From: Thermanaeromonas toyohensis ToBE
GTDB taxonomy: Bacteria > Bacillota > DSM-521 > Neomoorellales > Neomoorellaceae
Direction of reading: 5' to 3'
Length of the DNA: 64,000 nucleotides
NCBI RefSeq assembly: GCF_900176005.1
Contig: NZ_LT838272.1
Location: forward strand, 3,249,501-3,313,500
The notes under the pieces were generated by a model that worked only from the letters and a program-made list of their open reading frames with translations, was not told the origin of the DNA and searched no databases. Made by a program: the position numbers and the translations under genes. This document shows positions 17,475 to 62,659 of this stretch, piece after piece (position 1 is the stretch's first letter; each line of letters begins with the position of its first letter).

Positions 17475-17549
17475 TGGTGACCCGTGCGGGATTCGAACCC
17501 GCGTTCCCGGCTTGAAAGACCGGTGTCTTAACCCCTTGACTAACGGGCC
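17475..17549 (-). tRNA. tRNA-Glu (UUC)
   Basis: 75-nt cloverleaf read on the minus strand. The acceptor stem GGCCCGT pairs with ACGGGTC, the anticodon loop holds TTC, the T-loop is GGTTCGAATCC, and the CCA end is encoded. It is followed by a terminator. Confidence 0.97.
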
Positions 17550-17562
17550 GCACTCATAAAAA

Positions 17563-17639
17563 TGGTAGCGGTGGTAGGACTCGAACCTACGACACAGCGG
17601 GTATGAACCGCTTGCTCTAACCAGCTGAGCTACACCGCC
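17563..17639 (-). tRNA. tRNA-Met (CAU), elongator type
   Basis: 77-nt cloverleaf on the minus strand. The acceptor stem GGCGGTG pairs with CACCGCT, the anticodon is CAT, the T-loop is GGTTCGAGTCC and CCA is encoded. The paired 1-72 position rules out the initiator form. It closely resembles the B. subtilis elongator tRNA-Met near spoIIE. Thirteen bases separate it from tRNA-Glu. Confidence 0.95.
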
Positions 17640-25834: not shown

Positions 25835-25874
25835 AGATTAAGTAAAACTTAAGTGCAGTCCTATTCATACCTGT

Positions 25875-25980
25875 CTTCGTATATCCCCAGTAATATGGTC
25901 TGGGGGTCTCTACCAGGCAACCGTAAATTGCCCGGCTACGAAGGCGGGCCTTAGCTTTAAGGTCCAGCCAGTTAGCCGGG
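25875..25980 (+). promoter_or_regulatory. Purine riboswitch (guanine-type aptamer) with expression platform
   Basis: The aptamer spans 25875-25943. P1 is CTTCGTA with TACGAAG, P2 is CCCCAG with CTGGGG, the L2 loop TAATATGG and the L3 loop with CCGTAAAT are canonical, and J2/3 reads GTCTCTACC. The base matching ligand-pairing position 74 is C, as in guanine/hypoxanthine switches. Positions matching A24 and A73 of the xpt RNA are U and G, and P3 has an A-C mismatch. CCCGGCTA of the aptamer 3' side (25931-25938) is perfectly complementary to TAGCCGGG (25973-25980), which precedes a U-rich stretch. From 25981 to 26108 I see no further element. Confidence 0.9.
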
Positions 25981-51982: not shown

Positions 51983-52630
51983 TTATTTTACTTTAAGCTT
52001 TTCCCAGTCAGCTAAAAATCTAGCCAAGCCGACATCAGTCAAGGGATGTTTGATCATTTGAAGAAGGACTGAATAAGGAACAGTGGCGATGTCAGCACCT
52101 AAACGAGCGGCTTCAAGTACATGTAACGGATGGCGGATACTGGCGGCAATAATCTCTGTGCTTAATCCATACTGAGCGAAGATGGAAACCACATCGTGTA
52201 AAACTTCCATTCCTTCCTGGCCTACATCATCCAGGCGGCCAATAAAAGGGCTGACGAAGGTAGCTCCAGCTAAGGCTGCCAGTAAAGCTTGGTTAGCAGA
52301 GAAAACTAAGGTAACGTTAGTTTTAATACCCTCCTGGGAGAGGATCTTGACTGCCTTCAATCCCTCAGTTGTTATAGGTATTTTAATAACCACATTAGGG
52401 TGTATCGAGGCTAGCTCCCTGGCCTCCTTAAGCATACCCGGGGTTTCCTGGCTTATAACCTCTGCGCTTATGGGCCCATCCACCAGCTGGCAAATTTCTT
52501 CTATTACCTGGCGTAAGGGGCGGCCTTCCCGAGCTACCAGCGATGGGTTAGTAGTTACACCAGAAATTATACCCAGTTCAGCGGCTGCTTTAATCTCTTC
52601 TATATTGGCTGTATCGAGAAAAATGCGCAA
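51983..52630 (-). CDS. fsa: Transaldolase-like fructose-6-phosphate aldolase (Fsa/TalC type)
   Basis: Small transaldolase subfamily, 215 aa. [20 protein letters not shown], the Schiff-base lysine in [28 protein letters not shown] and AASIRHP. May act as a true transaldolase in the pentose phosphate cycle. TTG start 52630 with GGGGG eight bases upstream. It precedes rho by 19 bases. Confidence 0.93.
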
Positions 52631-52716
52631 AAATAGCACCCCCTTTAGGTTTATTTTTTATTTTCACCACGGCGAGGGAAAATCCTGCTAAAGCCAGCAC
52701 TTGTCCTGGGCTAAAG

Positions 52717-53021: not shown

Positions 53022-53876
53022 TTAAGCTTTACCTGCGCAGCCGAAAACCCTCATTTTATGCCGGATTACCTCCCGTGCTGCTTCCCGCGCCGGCCCTAAG
53101 ATCTTGCGAGGATCGATCTCTTCTGGTCGAGAGCTTAACTCCTCGCGCACCTTCTTCAAGAAAGCTATCCGGATATCAGTATCTATGTTAACTTTCCGCA
53201 CCCCCAGGCTAATGGCTTGCCGCAGGGCCTCATCAGGTACCCCCGAAGAACCATGTAAAACTAAGGGGATCTGGGTACGTTCACGGATTTTTTTAAGGCG
53301 TTCAAAGTCTAGGCGCGGCTCCCCTTTATATACTCCATGGGCAGTCCCTACAGCTACCGCCAGGGCGTCCACCCCTGTCTCCCGTACAAAGCGCTGGGCC
53401 TCTTCTGGATCTGTAAAGGTGGCCTCATAGCTAGAAACCTGTATATGATCCTCTGTACCCATAATACGGCCCAATTCCCCTTCCACCGATACTCCCATAG
53501 GTCGCGCAATCTCTACCACCTGCCGGGTTATAGCTATATTCTCCTCCAAAGGGAATTTGGAACCGTCTAACATTACAGAAGTGAAGCCTGCCCGTAAAGC
53601 TTTAAGCACTTGCTCCCGGTCGGTCCCATGGTCCAAGTGAAGGACCACCGGAACCCGAGTGCTCTCCGCCGCGGCCCGGACGAGGGAAACTATATAATTT
53701 AGCCCGGCATATTTCAGGGCTCCCTGGCTGGCCTGGATGATCACCGGGGCTTTCTCTGCTTCGGCAGCTTCCACAATGGCCTGAACTATTTCCATGTTAT
53801 TACAATTAAAAGCTCCTACCGCATAGGAGCCCTCTTCGGCCTTTTTTAATACCTCCCTTAAACTCACCAAAGGCAT
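53022..53876 (-). CDS. fba: Class II fructose-bisphosphate aldolase
   Basis: Zinc aldolase of glycolysis and gluconeogenesis, 284 aa. NCNNMEIVQAIVEAA, the zinc ligands in LHLDHG, DGSKFPLEENI, GELGRIMGTED, GTAHGVYKG, LHGSSGVPDE and KVNIDTDIR are present. Alternative tagatose-type specificity cannot be fully excluded. ATG 53876 has AGGGG eight bases upstream. Gene order spo0F-fba-fsa-rho follows B. subtilis. Confidence 0.95.
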   Translation of the reverse strand: MPLVSLREVLKKAEEGSYAVGAFNCNNMEIVQAIVEAAEAEKAPVIIQASQGALKYAGLNYIVSLVRAAAESTRVPVVLHLDHGTDREQVLKALRAGFTSVMLDGSKFPLEENIAITRQVVEIARPMGVSVEGELGRIMGTEDHIQVSSYEATFTDPEEAQRFVRETGVDALAVAVGTAHGVYKGEPRLDFERLKKIRERTQIPLVLHGSSGVPDEALRQAISLGVRKVNIDTDIRIAFLKKVREELSSRPEEIDPRKILGPAREAAREVIRHKMRVFGCAGKA

Positions 53877-53909
53877 CCTTCTATCCCCTCGCTTAAAGTC
53901 CATTTTAAA

Positions 53910-54299
53910 TTATATCCAACGGCCATCTAGGATACCCAGATCGGCTGCTAGCTCGGCTAAGGTGTGGTCCAACTGCTTCGTTGCCTGCTGGACCAAGGAT
54001 GGAGGACCTAAGAAGCCCGCTTCAAGCCCTGTATCCTCACAAAAAAAGGTAAAAAGTTCCTGGCCCAAGACCTCCCACCGGGGAAAATGCCAAAAATGTA
54101 AGCCCCCGCAGATTACGCAGTTTAGCTGTATCCACAGCCCCTTGCCCTTCTGCCTACCTATATCTAAAAGAGGAGTTCCACAAGGACATTTAATGGGGAA
54201 GCTACTCCGTCCCAAAGAGAAAAGGGAAAAATTATAAACCTCTAAACTCCCACAACCTGGGCAGTAGAGGGCGCAAGCCACTTCCGTACAGATTACCAT
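53910..54299 (-). CDS. Zinc-ribbon protein of unknown function
   Basis: 129 aa with three cysteine pairs: CPGCG near the N-terminus, CPCG, and CVICGG, suggesting one or two zinc ribbons. The C-terminal half is helical. It lies between spo0F and fba and overlaps neither. I do not recognise a named family; similar genes next to fba occur, I believe, in other clostridia. Confidence 0.72.
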   Translation of the reverse strand: MVICTEVACALYCPGCGSLEVYNFSLFSLGRSSFPIKCPCGTPLLDIGRQKGKGLWIQLNCVICGGLHFWHFPRWEVLGQELFTFFCEDTGLEAGFLGPPSLVQQATKQLDHTLAELAADLGILDGRWI

Positions 54300-54428: not shown

Positions 54429-54827
54429 TTAGCCAGTTAAAACTTCTAGATCTGGGTAGCATTGCTGGGCTAAAGCTATATCTACTAGATGGTAAAGGTG
54501 GGAAAGATCAAAAGGCTTATGGAGAAAATACTGCACACCCAGCTTTCGCGCTTGCTCCGCTAAGTCCTTATCTTCATAGGCCGTCACCACAATTATTGGT
54601 AACGACCAGGCTCTCCTATGTAGTTCTCGTAGAAACTCCACTCCGCTCATACCCGGCATTTTCATATCCAATATAGCTAGGCTAGGCTTCTCGGATATTA
54701 TCTTTTGTAGCCCTTCTTCCCCGCTTGCCGCCTGGAAGACTCTAAAACCTGCCTGGCGCAGGGCTTCCAATAGCAGACGGCGTACACCTGGCTGGTCATC
54801 TACAATTAATATAGAATCTTTTTTCAG
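54429..54827 (-). CDS. spo0F: Sporulation response regulator Spo0F with CTG start
   Basis: Single-domain phosphorelay receiver that passes phosphate from sporulation kinases to Spo0B or its equivalent and Spo0A. Translating from CTG 54827 gives 132 aa with Asp10, Asp11 (ILIVDDQPG), phospho-acceptor Asp54 (LAILDMKMPG), Thr82 (VVTAYED) and Lys104 (FLHKPFD), exactly the B. subtilis Spo0F positions. GGGAGGTGA lies seven bases before the CTG, and an in-frame TGA sits just before that. The first ordinary start is a TTG at 54770, which would cut off strand 1 and both acidic residues, so the CTG start is favoured. Confidence 0.9.
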   Translation of the reverse strand: MKKDSILIVDDQPGVRRLLLEALRQAGFRVFQAASGEEGLQKIISEKPSLAILDMKMPGMSGVEFLRELHRRAWSLPIIVVTAYEDKDLAEQARKLGVQYFLHKPFDLSHLYHLVDIALAQQCYPDLEVLTG

Positions 54828-54978
54828 ACCAGCTCACCTCCCATCCCCTGCGGGAGTACTTAGTCAGGCTCCGCTAAATCATCCGCTAAAATTAAAGGGA
54901 AGGGGATCCGCTCCTCTAAATCTACAATATATTCGCTTAAAAGCCCAAGAATTCCTCCTCCCCTAAGTTTCCGGTAGC

Positions 54979-56243: not shown

Positions 56244-57359
56244 CTAATCTTCTCCCACAACAAGGGAACCCCCTCCCTGGCCTGCCCTGCTCTTTAACCT
56301 CCAAAAGAGCAGGTGGCGGAAGAAAGAATAGGCCGGTTGGGCCACCCGCCAGAGCCAGTAGTAAAAAGGGGAATATACCAAGTCATATTCCCCGATAAAT
56401 TCAGTAAACACACCGCCGAAGCCCTTTTTAAACCGGTAAAGCCCATACAAGGGATGCTCTGGAGAAGTATCTCCAGGAACTCCGCGGAAATCGTACAGGG
56501 TACAACCCTGCTCCCGGGCCCAGCAGATCATGGTCCATTGCAAAAGATAATTAGGCATCACATTGCGATGGCGGTTACTGGAAGCACCGTACAGGTACCA
56601 AGCCTTATCTCCCAGTATAAAGGCTAAAGTGCCAGCGATGGGTTCTCCTTGGTAGTAAGCTAAGAAAAGCTTGGCATAGCCCCGTTCTACTAATTCCCTC
56701 CATAAAGTAAGAAAATAATCATAAGAACGTATGAGAAAACCATCCCTTAAGGCCGTCTCTTGCAGCAACTCATAAAATATCGGGAGATCCTCCAGGGTGC
56801 AATCTGTCTTTACTCTAACACCCCGGCGCTGGGCCAAGCCCAAGTTGTACCGCGTTTTAGGGTGAAAGTTCTTCTTTATCTCTTCTAGGGAAGGAGTAAG
56901 GCTTAAACGGAAGACATACCGGGGCTGAACCCCTTCAAAGCCGGTACCCTGGGTAGCCAGACGAAAACCTAAGCTTTTAAGGAGTTCTTTAACTTCTGTC
57001 CGCTCCGCCGGAATGGCAGGATCAATCTTAAGGAGAATAGCCCCTTCCTGCCGGGCCAGTTCCTGGACGGCTTGGAACAGAAAACGTACCAAGGAAGGAT
57101 TCCCGAAATCCACCACCGGCCCCCGGGGGGCATAAAAGATGCTTTTACCGATATAGGGTAGCCGCCGTTTAAGAAGGGAAACTGCGGCTACCAGGCGGCC
57201 ATCCTCCTCCACTACCAAGCGCAAGGGTTTCCACCCGGTTTTAGCCTTCACCTCGCCCCAGGCGAAGGTTTGCAAAATATGACCCTGGGGATGGTTAGCC
57301 ACAAAACCATCAAAAAGCTTCTCTTCTTCAGGGGATATAAGGCGGTACTTTAAACCCAT
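56244..57359 (-). CDS. FemA/FemB/FemX-like aminoacyltransferase
   Basis: 371 aa with tandem GNAT-like domains of the Fem family that add amino acids to lipid II or cell-wall peptides from aminoacyl-tRNA: [82 protein letters not shown]. It lies between pyrG (10-base overlap) and alr, a wall-related pair with the latter. The bridge amino acid is unknown. Confidence 0.9.
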
Positions 57360-58984
57360 TTAAGTTCACCCTTTTTAAGGGCATAAGCCACTGCTGCCCC
57401 GATAAAGTCGCGGAAGAGGGGATGGGGTCGGTTGGGACGGGACTTAAACTCCGGGTGGAACTGGCAGGCTACAAACCAAGGATGGTCTTCCAATTCAATG
57501 ATCTCCACCAGGCGGCCGTCTAAGGAGGTACCGCTTATAACGAGGCCTTTAGAGGTTAGCTCAGATCGGAAAGCATTGTTAAACTCGTACCGGTGCCGGT
57601 GCCTCTCATAGACCACCGCCTCACTATAGGCCGCCCGCGCCCGGGTTCCCTCCTTAAGACGGCAAGGATAAGCGCCCAGGCGCATGGTACCCCCCAAATT
57701 TTCTACTTCCTTCTGTTCAGGCAAAAGGTCGATAACTGGATAGGGAGTGCCAGGATCGAATTCAGCGCTGTGGGCCCCCTGTAAGCCGCATACATGCCGG
57801 GCAAACTCCACTACCGCTAGCTGCATCCCCAGGCAAATACCCAGATAAGGTATTTTGTTCTCCCTCGCCCACTGAGCAGCCAGGATTTTCCCTTCTATAC
57901 CCCGCTCACCAAATCCTCCAGGTACTAGAATACCCGCACATCCCTCCAAGGCCTTATCCACACCATTAGGAGTAAGCTCACCAGAGTAGATCCAGCGGAT
58001 GTTCACCGCCACCTCGTGGGCTAAACCGCCGTGGCGCAGGGCCTCCACAACGCTAAGATAGGCGTCGGGCAAAGTTATATATTTTCCCACTAGGGCGATG
58101 GTCACCTGGTGCTTAGGGTTTTTTAGCCGGGCTACCATGGCCCGCCAATCATCAAGCTGGGGAGGTCCGCATTGTAAGCCCAATTTCTCCACCACAATAC
58201 GATCCAGGCCTTCTTTCTCCATCATAAGGGGTACCTCGTAAATAGATTCCACATCCACGGCCTGGATTACAGCTTCCCTTTCAATATCGCAGAATAGAGC
58301 GATCTTTTCTGCCATCTCCTGGGATAAGGGTCTCTCCGACCGACAAACAATAATATCCGGCTGGATACCTATGGAGCGCAATTCCTTTACACTATGCTGG
58401 GTGGGCTTGGTCTTGGCTTCCCCTGCCGCTTTTAAATAGGGTACCAGGGTTACGTGGATATATAAAACCCGGTCGCGGCCTATATCGCTTTTAAGCTGCC
58501 TAATGGCTTCCAGGAAGGGAAGGGACTCTATATCGCCAACAGTCCCCCCTATCTCAGTAATCACCACATCCGGGCTGGTTTCCTGGGCTATCTGGTATAT
58601 CCGCTCTTTAATTTCATTAGTTACGTGGGGGATCACCTGGACTGTGCCCCCTAGGTAATCTCCCCGCCTTTCCTTGGTGATTACCGACCAGTAAACTTTA
58701 CCGGCCGTGACATTGCTAGCCTTAGTTAGGTTTATATCTACAAAACGCTCATAATGGCCCAGGTCCAGATCTGTTTCTGCCCCGTCTTCGGTTACAAAAA
58801 CCTCCCCGTGCTGGTAGGGGTTCATGGTCCCCGCATCTACGTTAATGTAGGGATCGAATTTTTGAATGGCTACCTTAAGCCCCCGGCTTTTTAAAAGCCT
58901 ACCTAAAGAAGCGGCGGTTATCCCCTTCCCCAAGGAAGAGACGACACCGCCGGTGATAAAGATAAACTTAGTATTATTCCCCAT
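57350..58984 (-). CDS. pyrG: CTP synthase
   Basis: Amidates UTP to CTP using glutamine. 544 aa: synthetase domain ([44 protein letters not shown]) and class I glutamine amidotransferase domain ([11 protein letters not shown], the catalytic Cys in [10 protein letters not shown], and the HPE of QFHPEF). ATG 58984 follows GAGAGGATG. The Gram-positive neighbour rpoE is absent. Confidence 0.97.
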
Positions 58985-62322: not shown

Positions 62323-62620
62323 AAAAAATTTAAGCTCCCCGTCCCAGGGACGGGGAGCTTCTACCCGCGGTACCACCCTAGTTGACCCTTAAAGTTCAAG
62401 GGCCCACCTCTTTATAGGGTACGGGAAAAGTGGGCTTCCCCTTTTCCGATACCCCCTCCCTTTTAACGGCGGGAGCTCCGGCTAAACCTACTAGTGGGTA
62501 TGCTCACCCACATTCAGCCTGCTTCTCCGAGGAGAACTTCAAAGTGCAGGGCTTAACCGGCCTCCCACCCTCGCCGGCTCGCTGGGTAAGCCGCCACACT
62601 TCTACTTTTCCTCTTCCTCG
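62323..62620 (-). promoter_or_regulatory. T-box riboswitch controlling aroF (candidate Phe specifier)
   Basis: On the minus strand: stem I closing with CGAGGA/TCCTCG, the AGTA motif and an AGCGAG-type upper loop; the conserved T-box GGGTGGTACCGCGG (62378-62365); and a strong terminator, a 14-bp stem with AAGCTCCCCGTCCC (62345-62332) followed by TTTTTT. In the specifier-loop region the 3' strand reads TGAAGTTC, where TTC (62536-62534) would specify phenylalanine. Uncharged tRNA-Phe should then stabilise the antiterminator. The specifier assignment is by reading, not folding. Confidence 0.85.
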
Positions 62621-62659
62621 AATTTAAGGCCTTAATTTTAATTTTATGTTTTTGGTGTT

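Follow-up and report, generated by a model that had tools for sequence, protein, structure and literature searches.

A conserved CTG as the probable start codon of spo0F in Thermanaeromonas toyohensis and other Moorellaceae

The spo0F locus and its surroundings

The window analysed here is a 64,000-nt stretch of the Thermanaeromonas toyohensis ToBE genome (NZ_LT838272.1), and all positions are counted within it (Table 1). Read along its strand, the neighbourhood of spo0F runs pyrG, a FemX-like gene, alr, spo0F, an uncharacterised gene for a 129-aa protein, fba, a talC-type aldolase/transaldolase gene and rho. The spo0F product contains a Response_reg domain alone (residues 6-115 of 132) and is a stand-alone receiver without an output domain. 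Spo0F accounts for each of its top eight PDB matches; the best is B. subtilis Spo0F (5.9e-25), to which it aligns in register (residues 3-113 against 3-113). Davidson et al. (PMC6136694) use fbaA, transaldolase and CTP synthase as marker genes for Spo0F, and all three are present here as fba, the talC-type gene and pyrG. The same genome encodes Spo0A, with its Spo0A_C domain, and a SPOB_a protein located between rpmA and obg, a position that it also occupies in a Moorella genome and that is the Spo0B neighbourhood in PMC6136694. Because both partners are encoded in the host, the Spo0F-Spo0B-Spo0A relay looks complete, as judged from gene content.

Several further features of the region were noted. 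The Spo0B-type proteins of Thermanaeromonas and Moorella speak for a complete relay in these Clostridia, against a 2012 survey (PMC3533761). The 129-aa protein between spo0F and fba is conserved, with CPGCG-type cysteines and 45% identity to its Moorella counterpart, and gave no match in Pfam or NCBIfam. Elsewhere the window holds a T-box leader (RF00230, 109.8 bits), a purine riboswitch (RF00167, 81.8 bits) and a tRNA-Met(CAT)/tRNA-Glu(TTC) pair.

Upstream of spo0F lies a SigH-type promoter that matches the consensus at 15/15 positions in the window and at 13-15 in all 17 orthologues compared, where it is found 60-117 nt before codon 1. The leader between this promoter and the Shine-Dalgarno (SD) sequence contains, in the Moorellaceae, AGCGAAG/AGCGGAG words that recur and also a G-rich stretch; no Rfam element was found in it, and a terminator scan found no intrinsic terminator past spo0F. 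We also considered a short upstream ORF that would terminate at the TGA of the SD, and rejected it, as it is seen in some Moorella and is broken or startless in others.

Around the start of spo0F the minus strand reads GGGATGGGAGGTGAGCTGGTCTGAAAAAAGATTCT...GATGACCAG. The original prediction held that no ATG, GTG or TTG in this frame would preserve Asp10 and Asp11, and that the gene instead begins at a CTG with an in-frame TGA just upstream. Reading and translating the strand bears out both observations: between the TGA and codon 20 there is no ATG, GTG or TTG, the earliest in-frame canonical start past the CTG is the TTG at 54770 (codon 20), and initiation there would remove both aspartates. 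With the CTG as codon 1 the protein begins LKKDSILIVDDQPG..., and D10, D11, D54, T82 and K104 fall, as had been claimed, on the B. subtilis Spo0F numbers. The SD that had been reported is also present, although it lies 6 nt from the CTG (9 nt if measured from the end of GGAGG) and not the stated 7.

Table 1. Positions of the features discussed (window coordinates unless a locus is named)
Feature	Position	Strand	Basis or context
spo0F CDS from CTG	54429..54827	minus	132 aa + stop; translation, domain search, structure match
CTG start codon of spo0F (probable)	54825..54827	minus	sequence reading and orthologue conservation
Shine-Dalgarno GGGAGGTGA of spo0F	54834..54842	minus	includes in-frame TGA 54836-54834; sequence reading, spacing survey
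Conserved spacer and first bases of CTG	54826..54833	minus	spacing survey, pairing count
Predicted hairpin, 5' arm GCTGGTC	54833-54827	minus	positions -6 to +1, takes in C of CTG
Predicted hairpin, 3' arm GACCAGC	54791..54797	minus	spo0F codons 11-13
SigH-type promoter GGAGGAATT-N12-AGCGAATAT	54929..54958	minus	conserved in 17/17 orthologues
spo0F leader	54843-54928	minus	between SigH-type promoter and SD
129-aa protein gene	53910-54299	minus	between spo0F and fba
fba	53022-53903		near spo0F
talC-type aldolase/transaldolase gene	51983-52639		near spo0F
pyrG (CTP synthase)	57350-58984		near spo0F
T-box leader	62343-62627	minus	RF00230
Purine riboswitch	25857-25958	plus	RF00167
tRNA-Met(CAT) + tRNA-Glu(TTC)	17475-17639	minus	
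Spo0B-type protein, Thermanaeromonas	L185:4579-5145		between rpmA and obg
Spo0B-type protein, Moorella	L186:4643-5197		between rpmA and obg

Conservation of the CTG in the Moorellaceae

The original prediction could be weighed by aligning spo0F starts from relatives, and the alignment favours it. We compared 17 spo0F orthologues of the Moorellaceae, the window included, and searched 18 family genomes for the start motif, some of these genomes being MAGs. CTG occupies the same codon in 13 of the 17 genes, spanning three genera, and two others carry an ATG at a distance of one or two codons. The identical GGAGGTGAGCTGGTCTG surrounds the CTG in 12 of the 13, including the window, and the eleven other carriers encode Spo0F proteins only 54-71% identical to that of the window. 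A 16-mer, GGAGGTGAGCTGGTCT, occurs in exactly one copy per genome in 13/18 family genomes, each time at spo0F (0 occurrences of the reversed-pattern control). In the sibling locus L003 the region reads GGAGGTGAATTGGCCTG, with the spacer altered at 3/8 positions and the CTG retained. In a tree built from Spo0F, Fba and Alr, CTG occurs on either side of the divergence that separates Thermanaeromonas/G017 from Moorella, the deep nodes being weak (41-57% support). Orthologues from the sister family in the same order and from other Firmicutes have ATG, GTG or TTG at, or nearby upstream of, the conserved region, and in the other Clostridia compared spo0F likewise starts with one of these codons. Changes between orthologues are mostly synonymous in codons 6-20; those in codons 2-5 are mostly non-synonymous, so that these few codons add little coding evidence.

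The exceptions within the family are informative. Genome G012, which falls inside Moorella (97% with its neighbour), reads GGAGGTGAGCTGGTTATCGTCATG at the start region, and G003 reads GGAGGTGAGCTGGTCTTAAAATG, keeping the motif with CTT in place of CTG and an ATG two codons on. In both, codon 2 or 3 of the spo0F frame is an ATG, which confirms the position at which Spo0F starts. The gap from GGAGG to this ATG is 15-16 nt, a poor SD spacing, and gaps of at least 15 nt were found in only 9/204 sampled pairs of SD and start. In G002 there is an in-frame GTG. In G015, a 1.4-Mb assembly, spo0F (L014) has lost its start frame and carries a TAG at Gln103; from the sequence, either the gene has decayed and sporulation has been lost, or the assembly is poor. 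The spo0A gene of this genome (L187) contains two frameshifts.

Starts of this kind appear to be rare in these genomes. In a background sample that took 0.8 Mb from each of two genomes, that of the host and that of a Moorella, spo0F was the sole case among 294 non-overlapping ortholog pairs in which a conserved protein starts upstream of all canonical starts in both genomes, once antisense artefacts, brief read-through across SD regions and a riboswitch-like leader (our reading of CTCTCAGG) had been set aside. The rarity of natural CTG starts, on which the original prediction had remarked, shows in published figures: CUG makes up 0.024% of bacterial start codons and yields 0.86% of the AUG level in E. 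coli (PMC11497404). Ancestral AUG starts have switched to CUG in 2 of 61,358 cases, and poor start codons tend to go with strong SDs (PMC5622118); the SD run of spo0F is 8 nt long and lies at modal spacing.

Alternatives to initiation at the CTG

Conservation of the codon, the SD and the frame across the family, together with the ATG that two relatives place within one or two codons of this position, strongly supports the CTG start, and we consider it very probable that spo0F of the window and of most Moorellaceae is translated from this codon. The spacer is conserved as well as the CTG, and thus conservation of the CTG is by itself no proof of its use as a start. The most serious alternative is that GGAGGTGAGCTGGTCTG is mainly a regulatory RNA or DNA site, either a hairpin or a binding site for a protein, and that the CTG is kept chiefly as part of it. 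The two genomes agree at 14/14 positions upstream of the start and at 6/6 in the spacer proper, each equalled by only 1/143 other genes, and the retention of the motif in G003 despite its CTT also speaks for such a site. Moreover, the spacer could pair with codons 11-13: all seven pairs of GCTGGTC/GACCAGC, one G-U counted, are present in 14/17 species, whereas a perfect 7-bp arm of this type was found in 2/167 background genes in the host genome and in 0/167 in both genomes. On the other hand, L003 has lost the spacer and two of the seven pairs (5/7 remain) and retains the CTG. The arms are otherwise invariant, which leaves no covariation to score, and the 3' arm is largely dictated by the DQP codons. 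The start region has an ordinary folding energy, which was rejected as a signal (ranks 30/125 and 25/125), and random-spacer folding controls gave p < 0.05 in only 4/17 orthologues. We regard the predicted hairpin as a good lead only. A site of this kind would be compatible with the CTG being the start too, and we think it unlikely, if far from negligible, that regulation is the main reason for which the CTG is kept.

It is much less probable that the CTG belongs to a mere leader and that translation begins at a canonical codon downstream, namely the TTG at codon 20 in the window or codon 7 in Moorella. The codon-7 start, absent from the window, is ATG in members of that genus except L017, which has TTG, and gene callers restricted to ATG, GTG and TTG would pick codon 7 or 20. 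In the window, L003 and L004, however, no canonical start codon precedes Asp10. A start at codon 7 would leave two residues between Met and Asp10 and, given the established structure of receiver domains, remove most of beta-strand 1. The perfect SD 9 nt before the CTG would be useless to either codon, and L015 and L018 acquired an ATG at codons 2-3, not at codon 7 only.

We give still less credence to initiation at the GTG within GGAGGTGAG (54837) followed by a +1 shift into the spo0F frame, whether through a programmed frameshift or because the ribosome slips on the A6 run. This GTG is common to all members and is in frame with spo0F in L014 and L016, and AAAAAA immediately follows the CTG in the window. 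Against such a shift, the GTG is part of the SD and has no SD of its own in Moorella, its frame ends differently in each species with no conserved classical shift site or stop, and the A6 run is missing in L004 and others. Finally, a sequencing or assembly error at the CTG, which the original prediction had named as a possible refutation and which only the prior rarity of such starts would favour, is refuted by the sharing of the codon among thirteen independent genomes, of which several are closed or consist of few contigs.

A possible throttle on entry into sporulation

The closest parallels are infC, which encodes IF3, and pcnB of enterobacteria, where conserved, very weak AUU starts with a good SD precede dose-sensitive proteins, the AUU of infC serving autoregulation through IF3. 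Like these genes, spo0F would pair a conserved near-cognate weak start with a good SD; in the window, L003 and L004 no canonical start yields the conserved N-terminus, and codon and SD are kept in 13/17 orthologues. Unlike in infC, the codon is CUG and Spo0F is not known to act in initiation; feedback is a feature of infC. The B. subtilis Spo0F begins with Met (MMNEK...). The window gene shares with it the protein, the neighbours (pyrG, fba, tal, rho), the residue numbering and the SigH-type promoter, and differs from it in the CTG, in having alr directly upstream and in the 129-aa uncharacterised gene downstream.

Two other systems offer useful comparisons. In a case that counsels caution, an upstream CUG with an SD in the leader of another regulatory gene, Caulobacter dnaA, gives a toeprint, yet goes unused in vivo, as genetics showed, and a canonical AUG follows (PMC8443254); window spo0F, by contrast, has no canonical alternative. 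PMC6136694 describes a clostridial Spo0F/Spo0B phosphorelay in Desulfotomaculum acetoxidans that was tested in vitro. It has the same marker-gene neighbourhoods as the relay considered here, and the text consulted mentions no CTG start. A search of open-licence papers likewise returned nothing relevant linking spo0F to a CTG start. What appears to be new here is a conserved and apparently deliberate weak start in a gene and at a codon unlike the known AUU cases.

The following sequence of events seems the most likely. The SigH-type promoter would fire spo0F, whose product would feed the Spo0F-Spo0B-Spo0A phosphorelay. The 30S subunit would dock through the near-complete SD match GGAGGTGA, for which the spacing is good, and fMet-tRNA would accept CUG with a C-U mismatch at the first position to give fMet-K-K-D-S-I-L-I-V-D-D. 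Initiation at CUG would probably be low in vivo and a low output would be expected. The predicted hairpin, in which the C of the CUG and the spacer pair with codons 11-13, may lower initiation further or make it regulable.

In B. subtilis, either too little or too much Spo0F blocks Spo0A~P, so that the level of Spo0F acts as a bandpass on Spo0A, and when Spo0F is in excess phosphate returns to it from Spo0A and is then lost (PMC3182994). Selection may thus hold Spo0F low relative to its partners because an excess would drain phosphate off Spo0A~P, and with a weak start behind its SigH promoter spo0F could be switched on for sporulation without overshoot. That weak CUG initiation caps Spo0F in this way is plausible and fits both the efficiency of CUG in E. 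coli (PMC11497404) and the effect of excess Spo0F in B. subtilis (PMC3182994), and we judge the case for it to be evenly balanced. More tentatively, the arrangement may be a family-wide throttle on sporulation: a conserved hairpin would close the first base of the CUG start, this start would set or sense how much Spo0F is produced upon SigH induction, and the lineages that regained an ATG would have kept initiation weak through their 15-16-nt SD spacing; this broader view we hold to be possible but somewhat doubtful.

If the CTG is indeed the start, the N-terminus of Spo0F in Moorella and its relatives is corrected, where gene callers limited to canonical codons would cut the protein. A CUG kept across the family at the relay that governs entry into sporulation would be a rare natural case, one in which selection seems to favour a poor start, and, should the throttle be real, a single base change ought to shift both the dose of Spo0F and the timing of sporulation.
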